Positions 24,846 through 63,100 of a DNA stretch of 64,000 nucleotides are shown in pieces (positions within the stretch are counted from its first letter, which is position 1; each line of letters opens with the position of its first letter). Below the pieces are notes generated by a model. That model ran no database searches. It was not told the DNA's origin and was given only the letters and a program-made list of their open reading frames with translations. Source of the DNA: Acidobacteriota bacterium (GTDB taxonomy: Bacteria > Acidobacteriota > Terriglobia > Terriglobales > Acidobacteriaceae). The stretch lies in contig JACPYL010000008.1 in assembly GCA_016196065.1 (NCBI GenBank), positions 248,001-312,000 of the forward strand, read 5' to 3'. The position numbers and the translations under genes are program-made.

Positions 24846-26020
24846 GTGCGAATGGCGCAACGCGAACGGCCGACTTCATAGTCCTCGGCGCCGGGGTAAT
24901 GGGAGCGTCGATTGCCTTCCATCTGGCGCGCCGCAAGGCGGGATCCATTGCCGTCCTCGACAAAGATCACGTGGCCAGCGGTGGCAGCAGCCGTTCGTCC
25001 GCGCTGGTCCGCATGCACTACAGCTTCGCGCCTGAAGTGCAGATGGCGTTGGTGAGCTTAAAGATGTTTCAGCACTGGCGCGAGATCGTGGGCGAAGCCG
25101 GCGAGTTTCGTAAGACAGGTTTTGTGCGGATCGTGCATCCGGGTGAAACAGACATACTTAAGAAAAACGTGGCCATGCAGCGCGAACTCGGCGCTGGCGT
25201 TGAATTGATCGATCGTCAGCAATTGCACGAACTGGAACCGGATTGGGTGGTCAACGAAGTCGAGCTTGCCGCCTACGAACCGGATTCTGGTTACGGCGAC
25301 GGCAACGTAGTGGCCAACGATTTTCTGAGTGGAGCGCGCGATCAAGGTGCAACGTATCTGCCCAAAACATTCGCATCGTTGCTGGTCGAGGGCGGACGAG
25401 TGCGCGGCGTGGAAACAGCAGCAGGCGCCATCCACGCTCCGGTCGTGATCGCTGCAACCGGGCCATGGACAAGGCCTTTGCTTCAGCCGGCGGGATTCGA
25501 TCCGCCGATTGAGCCCGAATACCATCAGGTTGCGATTCTAAAGAATGCCCCTGCCATGAGAAGTGGCGGATGCGCTTGCATCGATTCCGTAACCGCCACC
25601 TATTTTCGTTCGGATGGCAGCGACAAGTTCCTCATTGGCGATTTCTACGGCAAGCGGCCAGTCGATCCCGACAATTTTCCGCAGCGTGCATCGGAAACGG
25701 AACTGGAAGAGATCATCGAACGCGCCAGCCGGCGAGTTCCGAAGCTTGAAAATGCAGAAGTGATGCGCGGTGTGACAGGTGTCTATGACATGACGCCAGA
25801 TTCGCGGCCGCTACTAGGCTCGGTGCCGGGCGTCGAAGGACTTTATCTCTGCGCCGGATTTTCAGGAATGGGATTCAAGATCTCTCCCGCCATCGGCTTA
25901 GTGATGTCGGAATTGATTCTCGACGGAGCGGCGACCACGGTCGACGTTACTGCGTTTCGCCCTTCGCGTTTTGCGGAAGGCAAGCCGATCAAAGCAAAAT
26001 TTGAATACAAAGACGATTAA
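24842..26020 (+). CDS. DAO-family FAD oxidoreductase (sarcosine/dimethylglycine oxidase-like)
   Basis: A 392-residue flavoenzyme of the D-amino-acid-oxidase/sarcosine-oxidase-beta fold. The FAD motif is VLGAGVMGASIAFHLARR near residue 14, then GGSSRSSALVRMHY for flavin contact. C-terminal motifs include GVTGVYDMTPDSRPLLG and GLYLCAGFSGMGFKISPAIG. These enzymes oxidise N-methyl or amino-acid substrates; with a Rieske oxygenase next door, dimethylglycine or sarcosine are natural guesses. The GTG start is supported by AGGAGG seven bases upstream and by the GTGA overlap with the preceding stop. Confidence 0.88.
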   Translation: MSANGATRTADFIVLGAGVMGASIAFHLARRKAGSIAVLDKDHVASGGSSRSSALVRMHYSFAPEVQMALVSLKMFQHWREIVGEAGEFRKTGFVRIVHPGETDILKKNVAMQRELGAGVELIDRQQLHELEPDWVVNEVELAAYEPDSGYGDGNVVANDFLSGARDQGATYLPKTFASLLVEGGRVRGVETAAGAIHAPVVIAATGPWTRPLLQPAGFDPPIEPEYHQVAILKNAPAMRSGGCACIDSVTATYFRSDGSDKFLIGDFYGKRPVDPDNFPQRASETELEEIIERASRRVPKLENAEVMRGVTGVYDMTPDSRPLLGSVPGVEGLYLCAGFSGMGFKISPAIGLVMSELILDGAATTVDVTAFRPSRFAEGKPIKAKFEYKDD

Positions 26021-26038
26021 GTGCCACTTATTAGGTTC

Positions 26039-26075
26039 TGTCATCCCGAGCGAAGCGAGGGATCTGCAGTTTTCA
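26039..26075 (+). repeat. Half copy of the CATCC-GAGCG-GGATC dispersed repeat
   Basis: TGTCATCCCGAGCGAAGCGA and the following GGGATCTGCAG lie between two operon genes. Full inverted copies of the same sequence are at 28293-28372 and a variant is at 33255-33316. Confidence 0.65.
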
Positions 26076-26084
26076 GGAGGAGTC

Positions 26085-27077
26085 ATGGCAAAGAAAGGCA
26101 TTCTCGAACGTCTGAAAGATGGGCCGGTTCTCGGCGACGGCGGTTACCTACTCGAACTGGAGAAACGCGGATGGGTGCGGCCCGGCCCGTTCACTCCCGA
26201 GGTTGCGATCGTGTATCCGAACGCGTTGCGCGAATTGCACATCGAGTTCCGCGAAGCGGGAGCGGAAGTGTTGCAGGCTCTCACCTTCTACGCGAGCCGC
26301 GACAAGCTGGCGACCGTCGGCCTTGAAGATCGCGTCGAGGACATCAATCGCTCGGCCGTTCGCGTCGCGAAAGAAGTTGCGGGCGATCAGTGCCTGGTCG
26401 CGGGCAACCTCAGCCTGACCTGGATGTACGAGCATGGCAGCGCCTCGGCGGCGGATCGCGTGCGCGAGACGTTCGACGAACAGCTCCGGGTCCAGTGCGA
26501 CGAAGGTGTCGACCTCATCATCGGCGAAACATTCTCCTGGCTGGGCGAGGCTTTGCTGGCCGTGGAGCGAGCGAAGAAGACTGGCCTGCCCGTGATGGTC
26601 ACGATCTGCTTTGAGAACAAGGATGAGACGGCCGAAGGCAAGAACGCAGAGGAAACGGCCAAGACTCTACTGGATGCTGGCGCCGACATTGTCGGCATGA
26701 ACTGTCTGCGCTCGCCGGAACACACCTTGCCGTCGATGGAAAAGATGAGAAAAGCTGTGAGCGGATATCTTGCCTGCCAGCCGGTCGGATATCGCACTCC
26801 GAAAGAGAAGCCTGACTTTACCAGCCTCGAAGAGTTCCCATACGGGCTCGATCCCCTGCAACTCACGCGCAAGGAAATGGGCGAGTATGCGCTCCGCGCA
26901 AAGGAAATCGGCATCAACTACATCGGATCGTGTTGCGGATCGGTATCGGAACATGTCCGGGAAATGGCTCGCGTCCTCGGCAAGCTGCCGGCAGAATCGC
27001 GCATCTGGAAAAAGGGTGGCACAAAGCCGATGTCTGCGTACGAATACTACGATCACGATCAGATGACGACGAAGTAG
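26085..27077 (+). CDS. Homocysteine S-methyltransferase family protein (BHMT-like)
   Basis: A 330-residue TIM-barrel methyltransferase. The zinc-binding cysteines of the family are present at C207 (GMNC) and C283/C284 (GSCCG), the same spacing as in betaine-homocysteine methyltransferase. The N-terminal GDGGYLLELEKRG motif contacts homocysteine in relatives. It probably moves a methyl group from a betaine-type donor to homocysteine or a similar thiol, giving methionine in the cytoplasm. AGGAGGAG directly upstream fixes the start. A dispersed repeat separates it from the DAO gene, but the same promoter may serve both. MetH is encoded 6 kb away. Confidence 0.88.
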   Translation: MAKKGILERLKDGPVLGDGGYLLELEKRGWVRPGPFTPEVAIVYPNALRELHIEFREAGAEVLQALTFYASRDKLATVGLEDRVEDINRSAVRVAKEVAGDQCLVAGNLSLTWMYEHGSASAADRVRETFDEQLRVQCDEGVDLIIGETFSWLGEALLAVERAKKTGLPVMVTICFENKDETAEGKNAEETAKTLLDAGADIVGMNCLRSPEHTLPSMEKMRKAVSGYLACQPVGYRTPKEKPDFTSLEEFPYGLDPLQLTRKEMGEYALRAKEIGINYIGSCCGSVSEHVREMARVLGKLPAESRIWKKGGTKPMSAYEYYDHDQMTTK

Positions 27078-28399: not shown

Positions 28400-29356
28400 T
28401 CACGAACTCCCAATCCAAATCCCCGTGATAAACACGAGCACTCCCCCGACGACCACTTGAAATGCAGCCGAGAGCAGCGGTGTGTCCATGTAGCGATTGC
28501 GAATCCACGCAATGGCTGCGAGTTCCAGCGCCACAATCACCACGGCAGCAACGAAGGCTGCGTGGAAATCTTTGAGCAGGAACGGCAGCGTGTGACCAAT
28601 GCCGCCCGCTGCAGTCATAAGTCCCGTAACTGCGCCTCGCAAGACTGGACGGCCGCGGCCTGTGAGCGAGCCATCGTCCGACAACGCCTCGGCGAATGCC
28701 ATCGAGATGCCGGCTCCGATCGAAGCGGCGAGTCCGACGACGAAGGCGTCGTGACTGCTCTTGGTCGCGAAGGCAGCGGCGAAGACGGGAGCCAGAGTTG
28801 AGACGGAACCGTCCATCAGTCCGGCTAAGCCAGGCTGAACAATTTGCAGGACGAAGAGACGGCGTTGCGCTTCATCCTCGGTCTTCTCAACATCAGGAGT
28901 GATGTTTTCCTGGAGCGCTTCTGCTGCCACGGCATGTTTGCGCTCGCTCTCGGCGAGGTCGCCGAGCAGCTTGCGGATTCCGGCATCCGTCACCTGCGAC
29001 ATGGAGCGTTCGTAGAACCGGGTGGTCTCGAGTTCCATGATCTCAGCTTGCTTGCGGACGTCGGCGATCTTCAGCGGACGGGTCAGCCAGAAGGGGCGGC
29101 GCTGAATGAAGCCCTTGATGTCCTGCCGGCGAACCAGTGGAATGTGCTCACCAAAACGTTCGCGATACGTTTCGATCAGGCGGGAGCGGTGCTGCGATTC
29201 TTCCTCGCGCATGTCCTCAAAGAGCTTGGCGGTGGCGGGATAGGTTTCGCGGAGCCCGTCGGCAAAATCCGCATAAACCCGGCCATCCTCTTCCTCTGCT
29301 GCAATCGCAAGCGCCAGAATCTCACGCTCGGATAAGTCCTTGAATTTGCGCGCCAT
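28400..29356 (-). CDS. mbfA: MbfA-type membrane-bound ferritin/iron exporter (erythrin-VIT1)
   Basis: A 318-residue fusion protein. The N-terminal ferritin/rubrerythrin-like domain (about 1-160) carries di-iron ligands in E21-E23, E52-ExxQH56, a third in [12 protein letters not shown] near residue 107 and the fourth in ESERKH near 137. The C-terminal VIT1/CCC1-like membrane domain (about 175-318) has about five transmembrane helices and the motif [15 protein letters not shown]. Proteins of this layout export iron and protect against iron and peroxide stress in alphaproteobacteria. The ends are complete. No iron-box was recognised upstream; an inverted repeat lies there instead. Confidence 0.9.
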
Positions 29357-29553
29357 GAGGCTCCTAGGGAAAAACAGGTGTCGGGTCTTAGGTGTTAGGT
29401 GTCAGGAAAACAGACTCTTCACAAAGTATCGAATTTCCTGAGACCTAGCACCTGACACGATATCAAATGCGACGGTACCTCGTTTCCAGGCATCTATGTG
29501 ACTGGCACGCCCGCGGCGTGATAGATTTAGCTTTAGAACGAAGCGGCTTTCTT
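29357..29553. repeat. Inverted GTGTCAGG-type repeat and leader of cysK
   Basis: Arms at about 29379-29409 and 29434-29458 carry TTAGGTGTTAGGTGTCAGG and its complement CCTGAGACCTAGCACCTGAC. This is a dispersed repeat type of unknown role. A weak promoter-like pair (GTGACT at 29498, TAGATT at 29522) follows before the cysteine-rich leader ORF. Confidence 0.5.
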
Positions 29554-29631
29554 ATGTTTCTAGCCTCTCCATACCGCTCTCATCGGTTCTCGCAGGGCCC
29601 CTGCGCCTGTTGTTGCTGTTGTTGTCGTTAG
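29554..29631 (+). CDS. Cysteine-rich leader peptide upstream of cysK-cysE
   Basis: A 25-codon ORF. ATG is at 29554 and TAG at 29629-29631. The peptide reads [15 protein letters not shown], then [10 protein letters not shown]. Seven of the last nine residues are cysteine, using both TGT and TGC codons. A cysteine biosynthesis operon follows 64 bases after the stop. The layout matches an amino-acid attenuator peptide; poly-cysteine small ORFs are known to regulate cysteine genes in mycobacteria. The ribosome-binding site is weak (GAAG ten bases upstream) and an in-frame GTG lies at 29518. Function is inferred from position and composition. It is short, so chance cannot be fully excluded, but seven cysteines beside cysK make chance unlikely. 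Confidence 0.72.
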
Positions 29632-29691
29632 AATTCACTGGCTGCGCCCATTTCCTTACGGCAATCCTAAACATCAAGAATCACAGGAGCA
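29602..29691 (+). promoter_or_regulatory. Possible pairing between leader Cys codons and cysK ribosome-binding site
   Basis: TGCGCCTGT (29602-29610), the first cysteine codons of the leader ORF, is complementary to ACAGGAGCA (29683-29691). That second stretch contains the AGGAG ribosome-binding site of cysK. Eight of nine bases pair, with one A-G mismatch. CGCAGG-gcc-CCTGCG (29591-29605) is a competing local hairpin. A ribosome stalled on the cysteine codons would prevent the long-range pairing. This is a model read from the sequence. Confidence 0.45.
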
Positions 29692-29695
29692 TTTC

Positions 29696-30661
29696 ATGAG
29701 AATCGCAAATGACGTAACCGAACTGATCGGCAAAACGCCGCTGGTCCGATTGAACCGGATCACGAAAGGCGCGTCCGCGACGGTAGTCGCTAAGTTGGAG
29801 AGTTTCAATCCATGCGCGAGCGTGAAGGACCGCATCGGCGTCAGCATGATCAACGAAGCGGAGCGCGCCGGAAAGATTCAGCCCGGCAAGACCGTACTGA
29901 TCGAACCCACCAGTGGGAACACGGGAATCGGGCTGGCATTTGTCGCGGCAGTGCGCGGATACCGGTTGATCCTCACCATGCCGGAGACAATGAGTCTCGA
30001 ACGGCGAGTGCTGCTGCGCGCGTTCGGCGCGGAAATTGTTCTCACACCGGGTCCGAATGGAATGCCGGGCGCAATCGCGCGGGCCAACCAGATCCTGGCC
30101 GATACTCCAAACGGCGCCATCCTGCAGCAGTTTTCGAATCCTGCCAATCCGAAGATCCACCGCGAAACGACCGGCCCGGAAATTTGGGACGATACCGACG
30201 GACAGGCCGATATACTCGTGTGCGGTGTTGGAACGGGCGGCACCATCACGGGCGTGTCAGAATTCATCAAGGCGCGCAAACCGTCGTTTCGAGCGATTGC
30301 CGTGGAACCCAGCGCCAGTCCTGTACTTTCGGGCGGTAAACCGAGTCCGCATAAAATTCAAGGGATCGGCGCCGGCTTCGTTCCCGAGATTCTTCGGACG
30401 GACTTGATTGATGAGGTGGTGCAGGTCTCGAACGAAGATGCGATTGAAATGGCAAAGCGGCTTACTCAGGAAGAAGGACTGCTCAGCGGGATATCCTGTG
30501 GAGCGGCAGCGCATGCCGCGGTGCAAATTGCGCGCCGTCCGGAAAATGCTGGCAAACTGATTGTGGTCGTGCTGCCGGACTTTGGGGAACGCTACCTGAC
30601 CAGTATCCTGTTCGATCACTTGCGCCAGGAGGCACTGGCCATGGAAACTGTCGCGGCATAA
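29696..30661 (+). CDS. cysK: Cysteine synthase A (O-acetylserine sulfhydrylase)
   Basis: A 321-residue PLP enzyme that joins O-acetylserine and sulfide to make cysteine in the cytoplasm. The PLP lysine is K44 in [13 protein letters not shown]. The substrate loop is [12 protein letters not shown], the PLP phosphate loop [10 protein letters not shown], and the C-terminal [11 protein letters not shown] contact is present. Length is normal. AGGAG lies six bases upstream of the start and may be sequestered by the leader. cysE follows after six bases, giving a compact two-gene operon. Confidence 0.96.
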
Positions 30662-30667
30662 ACCATC

Positions 30668-31294
30668 ATGAGCCTGATTCGCAATATCGGTGAACACATC
30701 ACCTCCATCATGGAGCGCGATCCGGCGCCGAAGTCGCGCCTGGAGGTGCTGCTCTGCTATCCCGGGCTGCACGCGGTCTGGATTTATCGCCTCACCCATC
30801 AACTCTATAGAGCCCGGCTCTTTCTGGTGGCGCGCCTGATTTCGCAGTGGGCGCGCGCGATCACCGGAGTTGAGATTCATCCAGGCGCCGAGATTGGCAA
30901 GCGCCTGTTTATCGATCACGGCATGGGCGTGGTGTTTGGCGAAACGGCAGTCGTCGGAGACGACGTCACGATTTATCAAGGTGTAACGCTTGGCGGAACG
31001 GGCAAAGACAAAGGCAAACGTCATCCAACCATCCGCAACGGAGTTGTGATCGGCGCAGGAGCTCAGGTACTCGGAAATATCACGGTCGGAGAAAATTCAC
31101 GTGTCGGTGCCGCTTCGGTAGTGATTGACGACGTACCGGACAATTCCACGATCGTCGGCGTGCCCGGTCATATCATCTTCCGCAACGGCAAGCGAGTGGT
31201 GATTACGAATCCGCGCGAGATTCGCGATCCGCTGTCGGATGCGCTGCATGAAGTCGTCCAGCGAGTTGAAAAACTGGAGAACCGGGATATATGA
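30668..31294 (+). CDS. cysE: Serine O-acetyltransferase
   Basis: A 208-residue enzyme that acetylates serine with acetyl-CoA, the step before CysK. It shows the left-handed beta-helix hexapeptide repeats (about 70-170), with the catalytic segment [19 protein letters not shown] and [19 protein letters not shown]. The N-terminal helical domain is short, as in many bacterial forms. The usual C-terminal isoleucine that binds CysK is present (…NRDI). It overlaps nothing and ends inside a perfect palindrome. Confidence 0.95.
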
Positions 31295-33334: not shown

Positions 33335-36300
33335 CTACACCACGAAATACTTCGCCGACGGATGATGGATGACGATCGCGGATGTCGACTGCTCGGGTTC
33401 GAGAAGGAATCCGCTGGTCAGGCGGACGCCGACGTTCTTTTCCGGATCGAGCAATTTGAACAATTTGGTCTGATCTTCCAGGTTCGGGCACGCGGGATAT
33501 CCGAACGAGTAGCGTGATCCACGATATTTCTGGTGGAAGAGGTCACGGGTGTGCGGCGAGTCCTCCCCGCCGATGCCGAGTTCTTCGCGCATCTTCTTGT
33601 GATGAAATTCGGCAAGGGCTTCGGCGGTCTCTACGCTTAGTCCGTGGAGGTAGAGATAGCGCGTGTATTCTCCGGCTTCGAATAGGCGCTGGGTTTCGAC
33701 GGAGGCTCCCGGCCCGATGGTGACCAGCGACAAGCCCAGGACGTCCATTTTTCCAGAGGCCTTGGGAGCGATGAAATCTGCGATGGCCAGTTTGCGTCCT
33801 TCGCGCTGGCGCGGGAATGTGAAGCGCAGGAGTTCTTGTCGAGCTTCGCTCGACTCGCGGGCGGGGGCGCCCGCGCCACATTTACCCGGGTCGTAGACGA
33901 TGATGTCGTTGCCGTCGCTTTGGGCGGGGAAATATCCGTAGACAACTTTCGGCTCGAACAGGCCACTGGCTAAAACTTCATCCTGCAGCTTGTGCTTGAT
34001 CGGACGATATTTCTCTTCGACGAGGCGCGCGTAGTCTTCCTGGGCAGCGGTCTTGAGCTGCCACTGGTTCTTGAAGAGTGCCGTGTCGTTGATAAAGGGG
34101 AAGAGTTCGTTGAGGTCGTAATCCTTGATAACCCGCACGCCCCAGAACGGCGGGGTCGGAATGTTGGGCGCATCGGTGACGACTGGACTGCGCTCGGCGA
34201 ATACCGGGCCGGTTTCTTCGTCGACAGCGGTGGCCTTGGCATACTCTTTCACGGTCTTGCCTTCGGTGAGGCGAGTCGCTTTTTGGCCGCCGCCAGCGAC
34301 CAGGTCTTCCATCACGTGCAGTCCGGCAAACGCATCTTCGCCGTAGAAGACGGCGTTGGAATATTCGCGGCGCAGATCGTCTTCTACATATTTGCGCGTC
34401 AGAGCCGCTCCGCCACAGATCACCGGGTAGGCGAGACTCTGCTGCTGGAGATCCTGGATCACGTACTTCATCTCGAGCGTGGACTTTACGAGCAGGCCAC
34501 TGAGTCCGATAGCGTCGGCGTTGTGTTCTTTGGCGGCACGGATGATGACGTCGCCCGCCTGTTTGATGCCGAGGTTCACGACTTTATAGCCGTTGTTCGA
34601 CAGGATGATGTCCACGAGATTCTTGCCGATGTCGTGAACGTCACCCTTCACGGTCGCAAGAATGATCGTGCCCTTCTGCTGCGAGCCGGACTTTTTCTCC
34701 ATCTTCGGCTCGAGGTAGGCGACAGCCGCTTTCATGACGGCTGCGGAATCCAGCACCGAGGGAAGCTGCATTTTCCGCGCGCCGAAGAGGTCGCCGACCG
34801 TCTTCATGCCGTCGAGCAGGACGGTGTTGATCAGGTCGAGCGGCGTGTACTGAGTGAGAGCCTCTTCCAACAGTTCATCGAGCGTCTTCTTCTGCGCGCC
34901 TTCGCCGACGGATTTCTCTCCGTTGATGATGGCGTACTTCAGCTTGTCCTCGATCGAAAGCGCATCGACGTGAGCGGCAGTCTGCGCCTGCGGCTTGCCT
35001 TTCGTCCCGGCAAAATGCTGCATGTAGACCTGCAGCGGATCACCTGCCGAGCGATCCTGATAGATCAGCTTGCGCGCGAGTTCCACCTCTTCGTGCGGGA
35101 TCTTGTACAGCGGATACACCTTGCTGTAATTGACAATCGCCATATCGAGGCCGTTGTCGACCGCTTCGTGCATGAAGACAGAATTCAATACGCGCCGCGG
35201 ATAAATATCGAGTCCGAAACTAATGTTGCTCAAGCCGAGAATGGTCTTTACTTCCGGCAATTCCTGCTTGATGCGCTTGACGGCGTTCAATGTTTCGATG
35301 CCGGCGCTGCGGTACTCTTCCTGCCCGGTCGAGATCGGAAGCGTGAGCGCGTCGAAAATAATGTCGACCGGTCGAATACCGTACTTCTTTGTGGCGAGAT
35401 CGAAGATGCGGTGCGCGATCGCAACCTTGCGATCAGCAGTAAGAGCCATGCCTTCTTCGTCGATCGTGAGTGCAATCACGGCGGCGCCGTAGCGCTTCGC
35501 CATGGGCAGAACCTTGGAGGTGCGCTTCTCGCCGTCTTCGAGGTTGATTGAGTTGATGATGGCCTTGCCGGGAATACGCTTGAGCGCTTCTTCGATGACG
35601 TCGGCTTCGGTCGAATCAACGAGGATCGGCGCGGGCACGCGGGTCGCGACCTTCTCGAGAATTGCCGAAATGTAGCCTTTTTCGTCTTCGCCTACGATGG
35701 CGCAGCACAGGTCGAGCATGTGCGAGCCTTCGTTGGTCAGTTTTTTCGCGAGCGCGAGAATGTCGTCGTACTTCTTGCCTTGAACGAGCTTGCGGAAATG
35801 GTCCACGCGCGTGGTGGTGTTCATTTCCTCGGCGACGATCAAAGGCTTGGGTTCGAGATCGAGCGGTACGGTCGTGTACGCACTCGACGCCGCGCCGACC
35901 GGCTTCACTTCCCTCTTCGCCGGTTCCACGTTGCTGACGGCGTCAACCACGGCTTTCAAGTGTTCGGGCTTGGTTCCGCAGCAGCCACCGACGATCCGGA
36001 CACCGAAATCCACGACAAAATGCTTGTGATACTTTGCGAGCTCTTCTGGCGACAGCTTGTAGACGGCGTGTCCGCCTTCGTTTTGCGGCAGGCCGGCGTT
36101 TGGCAGAATCGAGATGTGCTTGGTCGAGTTCAGACCGAGATAGCGAACAGCATCCTGCATCTCAGCCGGACCGGTGGCGCAGTTCAGACCGATGATATCG
36201 ATGTCGTACGGTTCGAGCGCGGTGAGCGCGGCGCCGATTTCGGTGCCGAGCAGCATTGTGCCGGATTCCTGCAACGTGACCTGCACGGTGACGGGCAGGC

Positions 36301-36844
36301 GCTTCCCGGCCTTGCGCATCGCTTCGATCACGGCAGCGGTGGCCACTTTGGCTTGCAGCAGATCTTGCGCCGTTTCGATCAGCAGAACGTCAACTCCGCC
36401 TTCGATCAGAGCCAGTGCCTGCTGTTCGTAGGAGGCGAACATCTCGTCGAAGCCGATGTGTCCGAGCGACGGCAGCTTGGTGGTCGGGCCCATGGAGCCG
36501 GCAACAAAACGCGGCTTGTCCTTGGTGGAGAACTGCTGCGCGACTGCGCGAGCCAACTTGGCTGCGGTGATATTGATTTCTTCGACGCGATCTTCGAGTT
36601 CAAACTCACGGAGGACAAGACTCGTTCCGCCGAAGGTGTTGGTTTCGACCACATCGCAGCCGACCTTGAAGAAGGCTGCATGGATGTCACTGATGATGTC
36701 GGGACGGCTCAGTACCAGGACTTCGCTGCAATTCTCTTTGCCCCAGTAGTCGTCGAGGCTGGGATTGCGCACCTGGATGTTGGTGCCCATGGCGCCGTCG
36801 TAGACGACGACACGGTCTTGCACGAGTTGGAGAAAATCAGTCAT
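33335..36844 (-). CDS. metH: Cobalamin-dependent methionine synthase
   Basis: A complete 1169-residue MetH. The homocysteine domain (about 1-310) has zinc ligands C222, C288 and C289 (GLNCATGP, GGCCG). The methyltetrahydrofolate domain is about 330-600. The cobalamin domains have the cap near 640-700 and the lower-ligand motif DVHDIGKN near 720. The C-terminal activation (SAM-binding) domain includes RYSFGYPACPNLEDQ. It regenerates methionine from homocysteine with methylcobalamin. No ribosome-binding site lies upstream; a 34-base inverted repeat begins six bases before the start. No cobalamin riboswitch was recognised. It links to the nearby BHMT-like gene and to cysK/cysE through sulfur amino-acid metabolism. 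Confidence 0.97.
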   Translation of the reverse strand: MTDFLQLVQDRVVVYDGAMGTNIQVRNPSLDDYWGKENCSEVLVLSRPDIISDIHAAFFKVGCDVVETNTFGGTSLVLREFELEDRVEEINITAAKLARAVAQQFSTKDKPRFVAGSMGPTTKLPSLGHIGFDEMFASYEQQALALIEGGVDVLLIETAQDLLQAKVATAAVIEAMRKAGKRLPVTVQVTLQESGTMLLGTEIGAALTALEPYDIDIIGLNCATGPAEMQDAVRYLGLNSTKHISILPNAGLPQNEGGHAVYKLSPEELAKYHKHFVVDFGVRIVGGCCGTKPEHLKAVVDAVSNVEPAKREVKPVGAASSAYTTVPLDLEPKPLIVAEEMNTTTRVDHFRKLVQGKKYDDILALAKKLTNEGSHMLDLCCAIVGEDEKGYISAILEKVATRVPAPILVDSTEADVIEEALKRIPGKAIINSINLEDGEKRTSKVLPMAKRYGAAVIALTIDEEGMALTADRKVAIAHRIFDLATKKYGIRPVDIIFDALTLPISTGQEEYRSAGIETLNAVKRIKQELPEVKTILGLSNISFGLDIYPRRVLNSVFMHEAVDNGLDMAIVNYSKVYPLYKIPHEEVELARKLIYQDRSAGDPLQVYMQHFAGTKGKPQAQTAAHVDALSIEDKLKYAIINGEKSVGEGAQKKTLDELLEEALTQYTPLDLINTVLLDGMKTVGDLFGARKMQLPSVLDSAAVMKAAVAYLEPKMEKKSGSQQKGTIILATVKGDVHDIGKNLVDIILSNNGYKVVNLGIKQAGDVIIRAAKEHNADAIGLSGLLVKSTLEMKYVIQDLQQQSLAYPVICGGAALTRKYVEDDLRREYSNAVFYGEDAFAGLHVMEDLVAGGGQKATRLTEGKTVKEYAKATAVDEETGPVFAERSPVVTDAPNIPTPPFWGVRVIKDYDLNELFPFINDTALFKNQWQLKTAAQEDYARLVEEKYRPIKHKLQDEVLASGLFEPKVVYGYFPAQSDGNDIIVYDPGKCGAGAPARESSEARQELLRFTFPRQREGRKLAIADFIAPKASGKMDVLGLSLVTIGPGASVETQRLFEAGEYTRYLYLHGLSVETAEALAEFHHKKMREELGIGGEDSPHTRDLFHQKYRGSRYSFGYPACPNLEDQTKLFKLLDPEKNVGVRLTSGFLLEPEQSTSAIVIHHPSAKYFVV

Positions 36845-60190: not shown

Positions 60191-63100
60191 ATGAGAAGCA
60201 CGAAACTTCATTCACGAGGATTCACGCTGATTGCAAGTTTGCTGTTGTTGCTGCTCTTGTCGGGCATTGCCATCGGTCTGATGATGATGGTCAATACCGA
60301 AGGCAAGGTGGGCGGAGTTGACTTGCAGAACAACGTCGCGTACCACAACGCCGAGGGCGGCATCGAGAAGATGACGTCGGACCTGGCGGCCACCTTCCGG
60401 TCCGCGCAGTCGCCGCAGCCCAGTGATATTTGCGCGTTGAGCGCCTTGCAGCCAACGATCGCGGGAGTGACCTGGAAGGACTATCAGGTACAACCGGCGT
60501 CGGGTTGCTCCGCGGCTCTGACCAACCAGTATGGACAGATTCAGTCGGGACCGAACCAGGGCTTGTGGGCACAGATCATTCCGGTAACGATGCTGGCGAC
60601 CGCCGCACAAGCGGGCGGACAAGAAGTCAGCATGATGCGCAACGCACAAGTCGCGCTCATCCCGGTATTTCAGTTTGGCGTTTTCTCCGAGAGCGACCTG
60701 TCCTTCTTCAGCGGTCCGAACTTTGATTTTGCGGGACGCGTCCACACCAATAACGATTTGTATCCCGAAGTTGGCAACGGCAGCACGCTGACGTTTCACG
60801 ACAAAGTGACTGTCTTCGGCAACGTAGTGCGAGCGCAGCTGGCGAACGGGTTTCCGACCAACGCGAACTATGCGGGTACGGTGCTGATGCCGACCGCAGC
60901 CCAGGGTTGCGACGCCGGCAGGCCAGCTTGCCGGGCACTCAGCTTGACGGAAGGCAGCGTGACTGGCGCGGGAGGCAATCCGCCGCAATCGGGGAACAAC
61001 ACCGGCTGGCCGACGGTTTCGCTGAGCAACTACAACTCGGAAATCGTAAACGGCAACTTCGGCATCACGCCTCCGGGCGGCACGGGTGCTAAGAACCTGC
61101 AACTTCCGTTTGTGAACGGAACCGCGCAACCTTTCGAAATCATTCGCCGTCCGCGAGCCGGTGATTCTTCAGGACTCGCATCATCGCGCGAATACAACAT
61201 GGCGCAGATTCATGTGTTGCTCTCCGACGATCCCGCGGACCTTCCAGGGGGCGGCGGCGATGCGGAGAACGTGCGCCTGGCCAACGTGCCGGGCAGCAAC
61301 CAGTTTGGCATCGCGGCATCCTATCCCGCGGGCTTGCCTGGATTGGCGGTGGGGGCGAGTTACAACACTTATTTCGCAAGCGGTTCCACGGCGATCCCGG
61401 ATAACTCGACTTGCACGGCAGCCTCGCCGGGTGGACCGACGTGTCCGCCTCTGAACACGACCGCCGCTGCGACACCGTTGTTGTTCGACTGGCCTTTGGC
61501 TCCGGCTAATCCTGCTCCTGGAGCGCAGACACTGGTTCCTGCGGGAGCGCCTAATGTGTTTGCGGGCGGTGCGCCTGCACCGGTCGTCACACTTTGCCCT
61601 CCGGGAAACTTGAACGTCGCGCCACCGGCTGGATGCCCGGTTACCAACCCACCGTATCCGTACGAAGTCACAGCGAACCTGGACAAGGCTGCAACTTGGA
61701 ACATGTTGGACGGCTACCTGCGCGTGGAATACAAAGATGCTGCCGGCGCATGGCACGCGGTAACGAACGAATGGTTGCGGCTGGGCTTTGCAAGAGGCCC
61801 GCTGCCTCCGACCGCTCCGGGAGCGAACCCGGTGCATCCAACCGCAATTCTGCTTCTGCAAGCGCCAGCGGATCGCAATGGCGATGGTGCCATCGATGCC
61901 GATGGCCTGGCCCCGGTCTGCACGAAAACGAACGCCCCGACGGTGCCGACCAAGTGCATTCAATGGAATTATGGGCGTCCGCCTGAGGTCATTAAAGAAA
62001 CCAACAGCACCAGCCCGTACGTCGAACTCACCAACGGCGGCGCGAACACCGGGATCACTAGGAACAACTGGTATCCAATCAACCTTTACGATACCCGTGA
62101 AGGCGAACCGCGCGACGTGGCGGCGGGCAACAACTCGTGCTCTGCGGCGGGCGTGCTCAATGCCGTTGAAATCGATACCGGCAACCTGAAGAGATGGCTC
62201 TGGGGAGCGATTGGAGCAAGCGGCACCAACGTCGACTTCCTGGCCCAGAACGGATGGGTGTTGTACTTCTCCGATCGGCGGGGCATGTTAAAGAACCCGA
62301 ATCCGCCGTACAACGGGATTGAAAAATCGGGAGACTCCGGGCTCGAGGACGTGATCAATTCAGCTTCGGCGGGCGGCGTACCCGATGGCGTTTTGGACCC
62401 GATCGCGCCGGGCAAGAAGTTCTCCGCAGAAGATGCCAGCCAGAACAAGCTTCCTGATTTCTATGGCCCGGCGAACATCGGCCTGGGTTTCTACAACGGT
62501 GCCATCAACATCAACGGCCAGATCATCGGCGCGGTGCCGGACAACCCGTATCTTCCGCGCATCAATGCCTGTCTGACAACAGGGCGCAAGAACTGGGTGA
62601 GCGGCGCACGTCACGCGCTCAAACTGGTGGATGGTTCACTGGGCAACGTGCCGTTGCGTACCGATAACACCGGAGGATTTACGGTGGCTTCGGAGAATCC
62701 TGTCTACGTGCAGGGCAACTACAACTCCAACGCCGCGGACCCGACCTGGGGCGGTGGCGCGGACGTCGGCGGACATGCGGCCGCCGCGGTCATCGCGGAC
62801 ACCGTGACGCTGCTCTCAAACAATTGGACGGATCTGAACAGCATGGCGAACCCGACCACGGTCGGAAATCGCAATGCGGCGACCACCTACTACCGCCTGG
62901 CAATCGCAGGCGGCAAGAACCAGAACTTTCCGAAGCCGGCCTGGGGTGCGAATGACTATGGCACTGACGGCGGCACGCACAACTTCCTGCGCTATCTGGA
63001 AAACTGGGGCGGACAGACTCTGAACTACAAGGGTTCGCTGGTCAGCCTCTACTATTCGACTTACAACACGGGCGTCTTCAAATGCTGTACCACGGTCTAC

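Follow-up and report, generated by a model that had tools for sequence, protein, structure and literature searches.

A probable cysteine-sensing leader peptide upstream of cysK-cysE in an Acidobacteriota genome

The question raised by the present locus is what a short reading frame ending in a run of cysteines does in front of the gene for cysteine synthase A. In the window, by which we mean the whole 64,000-nt stretch of Acidobacteriota DNA analysed here, a frame of 25 codons starts at ATG 29554 and stops at TAG 29629–29631; its peptide ends in C-A-C-C-C-C-C-C-R, and 64 nt separate its stop codon from the ATG of cysK (29696). Our answer is that 29554–29631 probably encodes a cysteine-sensing leader peptide attenuating cysK-cysE, with a Rho-dependent output slightly favoured. 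The sensor is well supported by the comparison of sequences among relatives, and we infer the mechanism that would operate in the window.

The leader frame and its surroundings in the window

The features of the window used in the following are listed here.

29498..29527, + strand: weak candidate promoter, GTGACT (29498–29503), 18 nt, TG-n-TAGATT (29519–29527)
29554..29631, + strand: leader ORF of 25 codons, found by ORF reading and recurring in relatives
29602..29625, + strand: Cys codon tract, TGC GCC TGT TGT TGC TGT TGT TGT, by sequence reading
29632..29695, + strand: spacer of 64 nt with C over G, candidate site of the output step (Rho loading or start control)
29683..29691, + strand: ACAGGAGCA, the ribosome-binding site of cysK and the claimed partner of the Cys tract; foldable, not above chance and not conserved
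29696..30661, + strand: cysK, cysteine synthase A (curated model TIGR01139, 455.9 bits)
30668..31294, + strand: cysE, serine O-acetyltransferase (curated model TIGR01172, 252.9 bits)

An earlier note on this DNA had reported the 25-codon poly-Cys ORF 64 bases before cysK, and we could confirm its coordinates and sequence as well as, by the above models, the identities of CysK and CysE. The tract holds seven Cys codons, five of which are TGT, and one codon separates it from the stop. When the 300 nt upstream of cysK are read on the forward strand, the real maximum is six Cys in six codons; among 5000 dinucleotide shuffles of these 300 nt, five Cys in six codons occurred in 0 and four in six codons in 8 (forward). 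The window leader is a short ORF rich in codons of the product amino acid and located upstream of a biosynthetic gene, as amino-acid leader-peptide attenuators in general are. The gap between cysK and cysE is only 6 nt, and cysE is presumably on the same transcript.

An alternative in-frame ATG at 29467 gives a 54-codon version of the leader, and this version is excluded if the promoter at 29498..29527 is used. The weak promoter box ends 26 nt upstream of the leader ATG; a consensus promoter scan found no promoter at the window leader. Among the relatives described below, TTGAC[TCG]-17/18-TATAAA ends 9–10 nt before the leader ATG in the genus g46 (4/4), and TTGCAA-17/18-TGnTACAGT ends 7–8 nt before a GTG start in g32 (2/2). 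Because these −10 boxes stand 7–10 nt from the leader start, the mRNA of g46 and g32 may be leaderless or nearly so.

In agreement with the earlier note, neither the terminator scan nor the hairpin rule described below found an intrinsic terminator with a U-run between the leader and cysK (29632–29695); the only terminator-like match of the scan, at 29591–29605, is within the leader and 5' of the Cys run. No Rfam family (riboswitches, T-box and others) was over its gathering score in 29300–29760, where the six matches are all miRNA families far under their gathering scores and all lie on a palindrome (29381–29461). This strong palindrome, which extends over 29376–29464 (−45 kcal/mol, z −7.9) between a divergent ORF (28400–29356) and the leader, recurs in the genome, with 31 matches that are full or partial, and looks like what we label a REP-type repeat family. 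Methionine-cycle genes, named by reading, are also found near cysK-cysE: a homocysteine S-methyltransferase-like ORF (25971–27077) and a metH-like ORF of 1169 aa (33335–36844).

Recurrence in relatives and codon choice

We examined 132 cysK upstream regions of the GTDB family. They come from CysK searches in which the close matches were fetched first, and are therefore not a random sample of independent loci. As a leader we counted a small ORF with at least four Cys in six residues, located no more than 300 nt from cysK. Such ORFs were found in 17 of the 132 loci, whereas the reverse strand gave 0/132 and shuffled sequences gave 0.16 per 132; the recurrence is far above chance. One more locus (L077), whose peptide ends in SCCC with three Cys, was added by eye, giving 18 of 132 loci and 8 of 38 genera with a leader. 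A looser scan, extending to 600 nt and requiring no start codon, gave 21 places on the forward strand and one on the reverse; this widening added L090, L093 and L218 forward and L026 reverse, none of which was counted as a leader.

The earlier note had made its reading depend on the presence of Cys-rich ORFs in relatives, and the outcome is divided: the leader is missing from 12 of the 13 cysK loci that represent the genus of the window, and seven other genera carry it. Its presence is also scattered on the CysK tree (39 rows). Both observations count against the reading as an attenuator, and the scatter, taken together with the absence from most same-genus loci, indicates that gain, loss or transfer has been frequent. 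The near relatives that bear names are MAGs, Acidobacteriaceae and Granulicella among them. Across the leader loci, the tract and the stop hold the frame, and the remainder of the peptide varies widely. In one locus (L017, genome G139), a CCCC run and the stop are retained upstream of cysK, an in-frame start codon is absent and a short repeat precedes the run; this leader is apparently decaying, and we counted it as decayed.

Outside the family, four Cys in six residues were found in 0 of 73 loci not named as Acidobacteria and in 0 of the 20 loci checked among 36 from other Acidobacteriota families, a group in which L279 and L288 have only about 100 nt of upstream DNA and L274 is mis-set. Second leaders were searched for near PAPS-reductase/CysD-type genes (14 loci in 10 of 17 genomes), and no small ORF with four Cys in six residues was found there.

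The choice of Cys codons in the tracts is opposite to that in the downstream gene. The leader tracts of the 18 loci have 56 TGT and 18 TGC, whereas the CysK genes of 11 leader loci have 2 TGT and 15 TGC (Fisher 1.6e-6, without correction for relatedness); among 32 long frames of the window, some of them unproven as genes, the counts are 61 TGT and 165 TGC. A modelling study holds that sensitive attenuation requires a particular choice of control codons (PMC1183508). This might account for the bias of the tracts towards UGU, on which ideas about the choice of control codons could be tested. Avoidance of structure in the tract is an alternative account of the same preference.

Two leader architectures and the output step

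Two architectures can be distinguished among the leaders, class A with six loci and class B with 12, the window belonging to class B. Class A consists of L010, L027 and the genomes L096, L101, L109 and L113 of the genus g46, four of the six thus representing one genus. In this class the Cys run ends 7–12 codons 5' of the stop, and an intrinsic terminator with a U-run begins 21–48 nt past the leader stop. We folded only the RNA outside the modelled ribosome, with the polymerase placed just beyond the 5' arm of the terminator. With the ribosome at the last Cys of the run, the terminator 5' arm was predicted to be paired with the leader end at a fraction of 0.57–0.86 in all six loci, and with the ribosome at the stop, the same pairing dropped to 0.01–0.35 (6/6). 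Shuffled spacers equalled the effect in 30, 16, 37, 26, 13 and 2 of 500 for the respective loci; a single class A locus is accordingly no more than suggestive, and the six together carry more weight, with the reservation that one genus supplies four of them.

By one fixed rule, which is the rule that had defined the class A terminators, a terminator-like hairpin within 200 nt of cysK was present in 6/6 class A loci versus 19/113 leaderless loci. As far as the folding models go, the class A anatomy is that of a textbook attenuator, with Cys codons, an antiterminator arm within the ORF and an intrinsic terminator. In g46, the conserved end of the peptide (G...IV) coincides with the pairing arm; the outer antiterminator helix is nearly invariant there and so gives no covariation support. 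For the inner helix of L096, a later CGTGGAA pairs better, by eye, than the CGTG used in the helix script. The central proposal of the earlier note, namely a cysteine-sensing leader upstream of cysK-cysE, is thus supported both by the eight genera and by six relatives with the full anatomy of a Cys attenuator.

Class B comprises the window, L002, L201, L202, L003, L008, L014, L020, L061, L023, L077 and L097. Here the Cys run ends 0–2 codons before the stop, and in L077 right at it; the distance from the leader stop to the cysK ATG is 63–75 nt in 10 of the 12 loci and close to 100 nt in the two loci of g32. The class A rule found a terminator-like hairpin between stop and cysK in one of 12 loci (L097, loose), and in the last 80 nt of leaderless controls it is found in 2/113; in L023, inspection by eye shows a hairpin of 7 bp and just four T ahead of the ribosome-binding site of cysK. 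The window, with a Cys run near the stop and no terminator found, has the form seen in mycobacterial-type leaders. The C-over-G skew of the spacer is 0.36 in 13 loci (the decayed L017 included) versus 0.07 in 113 others; the difference between genus-level means is modest (0.33 for 5 genera versus 0.07 for 31, p 0.0098), and several leaderless genera are as skewed as leader genera.

The mechanism we propose is as follows. When Cys-tRNA is charged, the ribosome would pass the Cys run, terminate at TAG and depart, and cysK-cysE expression would be cut; when Cys-tRNA is short, the ribosome would stall on the run beside the stop codon, and expression would rise. For the window, we infer leader translation, stalling and the direction of control alike. 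In class B, the output may be that Rho terminates transcription prematurely within the C-rich spacer unless a ribosome held at the leader end hinders it. Our analysis slightly favours this output over control of translation, because the spacer has C over G, Rho is encoded in the window's genome and a run placed against the stop is suited to shielding of a Rho site. The earlier note had ranked translational above transcriptional control, a ranking we find unsupported since relatives carry intrinsic terminators and terminator-less leaders can use Rho.

The alternative that survives best, which we nevertheless consider rather unlikely, is another translational route, in which the class B spacer hides the cysK start by a fold other than the pairing claimed in the earlier note, or re-initiation is coupled to leader translation, and a stalled ribosome alters either. 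Passages of the mycobacterial literature describe poly-Cys leaders as acting on translation (PMC9031893, PMC9094748, PMC13236596), and the stop-to-ATG distance of 63–75 nt in most class B loci is also consistent with such a route. In 3/14 loci (L201, L008 and L023), pairing between the RNA past the stop and the cysK start is nominally significant (p <0.05) against one of two controls, and a hairpin that covers the ribosome-binding site of cysK can form in four closely related g63 species. This hairpin is, however, not kept across the g63 set, and the search of the g63 class B spacer gave no structure with convincing conservation or covariation. When only the RNA beyond the ribosome was folded, the cysK start became more accessible (by over 0.02) in just 1/12 class B loci with a stall at the first Cys and in 4/12 with a stall at the third. 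Unmasking of the Shine-Dalgarno sequence by stalling was rejected, modelled start accessibility having no consistent shift across the 12 loci. A pause hairpin before the Cys run was a further candidate; L020 alone among the 18 loci exceeds every one of 200 shuffles, and this candidate was also set aside.

The translational attenuation proposed by the earlier note is more doubtful still. Here the first Cys codons, TGCGCCTGT, would pair with the cysK ribosome-binding site, ACAGGAGCA (29683–29691), and a stalled ribosome would free the site. By reading, the two match at eight of nine positions. In ribosome-free window RNA the nine pairs have a mean probability of 0.46–0.53, which falls to 0.02–0.24 with the ribosome at the stop and to 0 with the ribosome on the first Cys codon; since the pairing folds in ribosome-free RNA and vanishes with the stalled ribosome, the switch is mechanically possible, and the folding speaks for control of translation. 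A duplex as stable as that between tract and start in the window (−12.6 kcal/mol) forms, however, in 25% of cases when the leader is shuffled and in 26% when the start region is. Among the 14 loci tested in all, p <0.05 was reached in L010 only, a class A locus, and no other class B locus tested had a significant duplex. The accessibility of the window's cysK start moreover hardly differs between the free (0.55), finished (0.55) and stalled (0.55–0.57) states. What stands of this proposal is the match and the ribosome-free folding; strength above chance (p ~0.25) and conservation in relatives do not.

Far less probable is that the tract is a functionless accident, i.e., that a stretch rich in GTT, or a set of Leu codons in a different frame, happens to read as Cys. 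The window's own genome offers examples of this kind: a TGY4 pattern has 54 matches there (43 in a control), 30 of which came with a locus; 23 places from these were inspected, and 16 of them, apart from the leader itself, were tested as other poly-Cys leaders and rejected, all sitting in stop-to-stop frames of 135–841 codons, several with Leu runs. Recurrence before cysK far over the controls and the attenuator anatomy in six relatives nevertheless speak against an accident at the present locus. Two related long frames at 60240 and 63551, pilin-like by their start GFTLIASLLLLLLLSG as judged by reading, have Leu runs that read as poly-Cys in another frame.

Equally improbable is that the peptide itself acts, e.g., as a thiol or metal sensor, instead of sensing Cys-tRNA; clustered Cys residues can bind metals, but both the UGU bias and the placing of the tract relative to stop or antiterminator are in keeping with codon sensing, and the remaining peptide varies widely.

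Returning to the leader as a sensor of Cys-tRNA charging, we give about an even chance to the view that the loci form one family with one sensor, a UGU-rich Cys run before cysK, and two outputs, one with antiterminator and terminator and the other terminator-less with the run against the stop. If this is true, the family would include a classical intrinsic-terminator attenuator for cysteine and would offer a natural set of cases in which one attenuator output (terminator or none) gave way to another and the sensor was kept.

Comparison with known systems

Among the literature matches listed, which are mostly without subscription papers, we found neither a cysteine leader in Acidobacteriota nor a classical cysteine attenuator with an intrinsic terminator. 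Classical attenuators such as those of trp, his and leu (PMC1183508) resemble class A in having control codons, an antiterminator arm that the ribosome covers once it reaches the stop, and an intrinsic terminator. They differ in that the control codons here are those of Cys and that the window is without a terminator.

In tnaC of E. coli, free tryptophan is sensed via the nascent peptide, and the ribosome is held at the leader end. The likeness is that a ribosome held at that place could shield a Rho site beside the stop; the difference is that tnaC responds to free tryptophan through its nascent peptide, whereas charging of tRNA is presumed here.

Candidate terminator-less cys leader peptides were predicted in Mycobacterium, P. 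acnes and B. longum in 2005 by Seliverstov and colleagues (PMC1262725), passages of which suggest Rho termination for the Actinobacterial leaders and name tna as a parallel; the authors called this suggestion weak because the motifs were not conserved. As described there, the Actinobacterial leaders are like class B in having Cys runs near the stop and no conserved terminator hairpin, and unlike the present ones in that their targets are cys operons and cbs and that they lacked the terminator found in class A (PMC1262725).

A further likeness is to the leaderless poly-Cys sORFs of mycobacteria (Canestrari 2020), which precede cysteine genes according to passages of PMC9031893, PMC9094748 and PMC13236596. 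Common to both, as far as these passages go, is a short ORF of contiguous Cys codons, and with a −10 box 7–10 nt from the start the mRNA of g46 and g32 may likewise be leaderless or nearly so; the present leaders differ in the phylum, in the target cysK-cysE, in the intrinsic terminators of six relatives and, for the window, in a weak promoter box 26 nt from the ATG. Judged from sequence comparison, the locus would represent a cysteine-sensing leader of a known kind, now in another phylum and with a terminator-bearing variant in its relatives.
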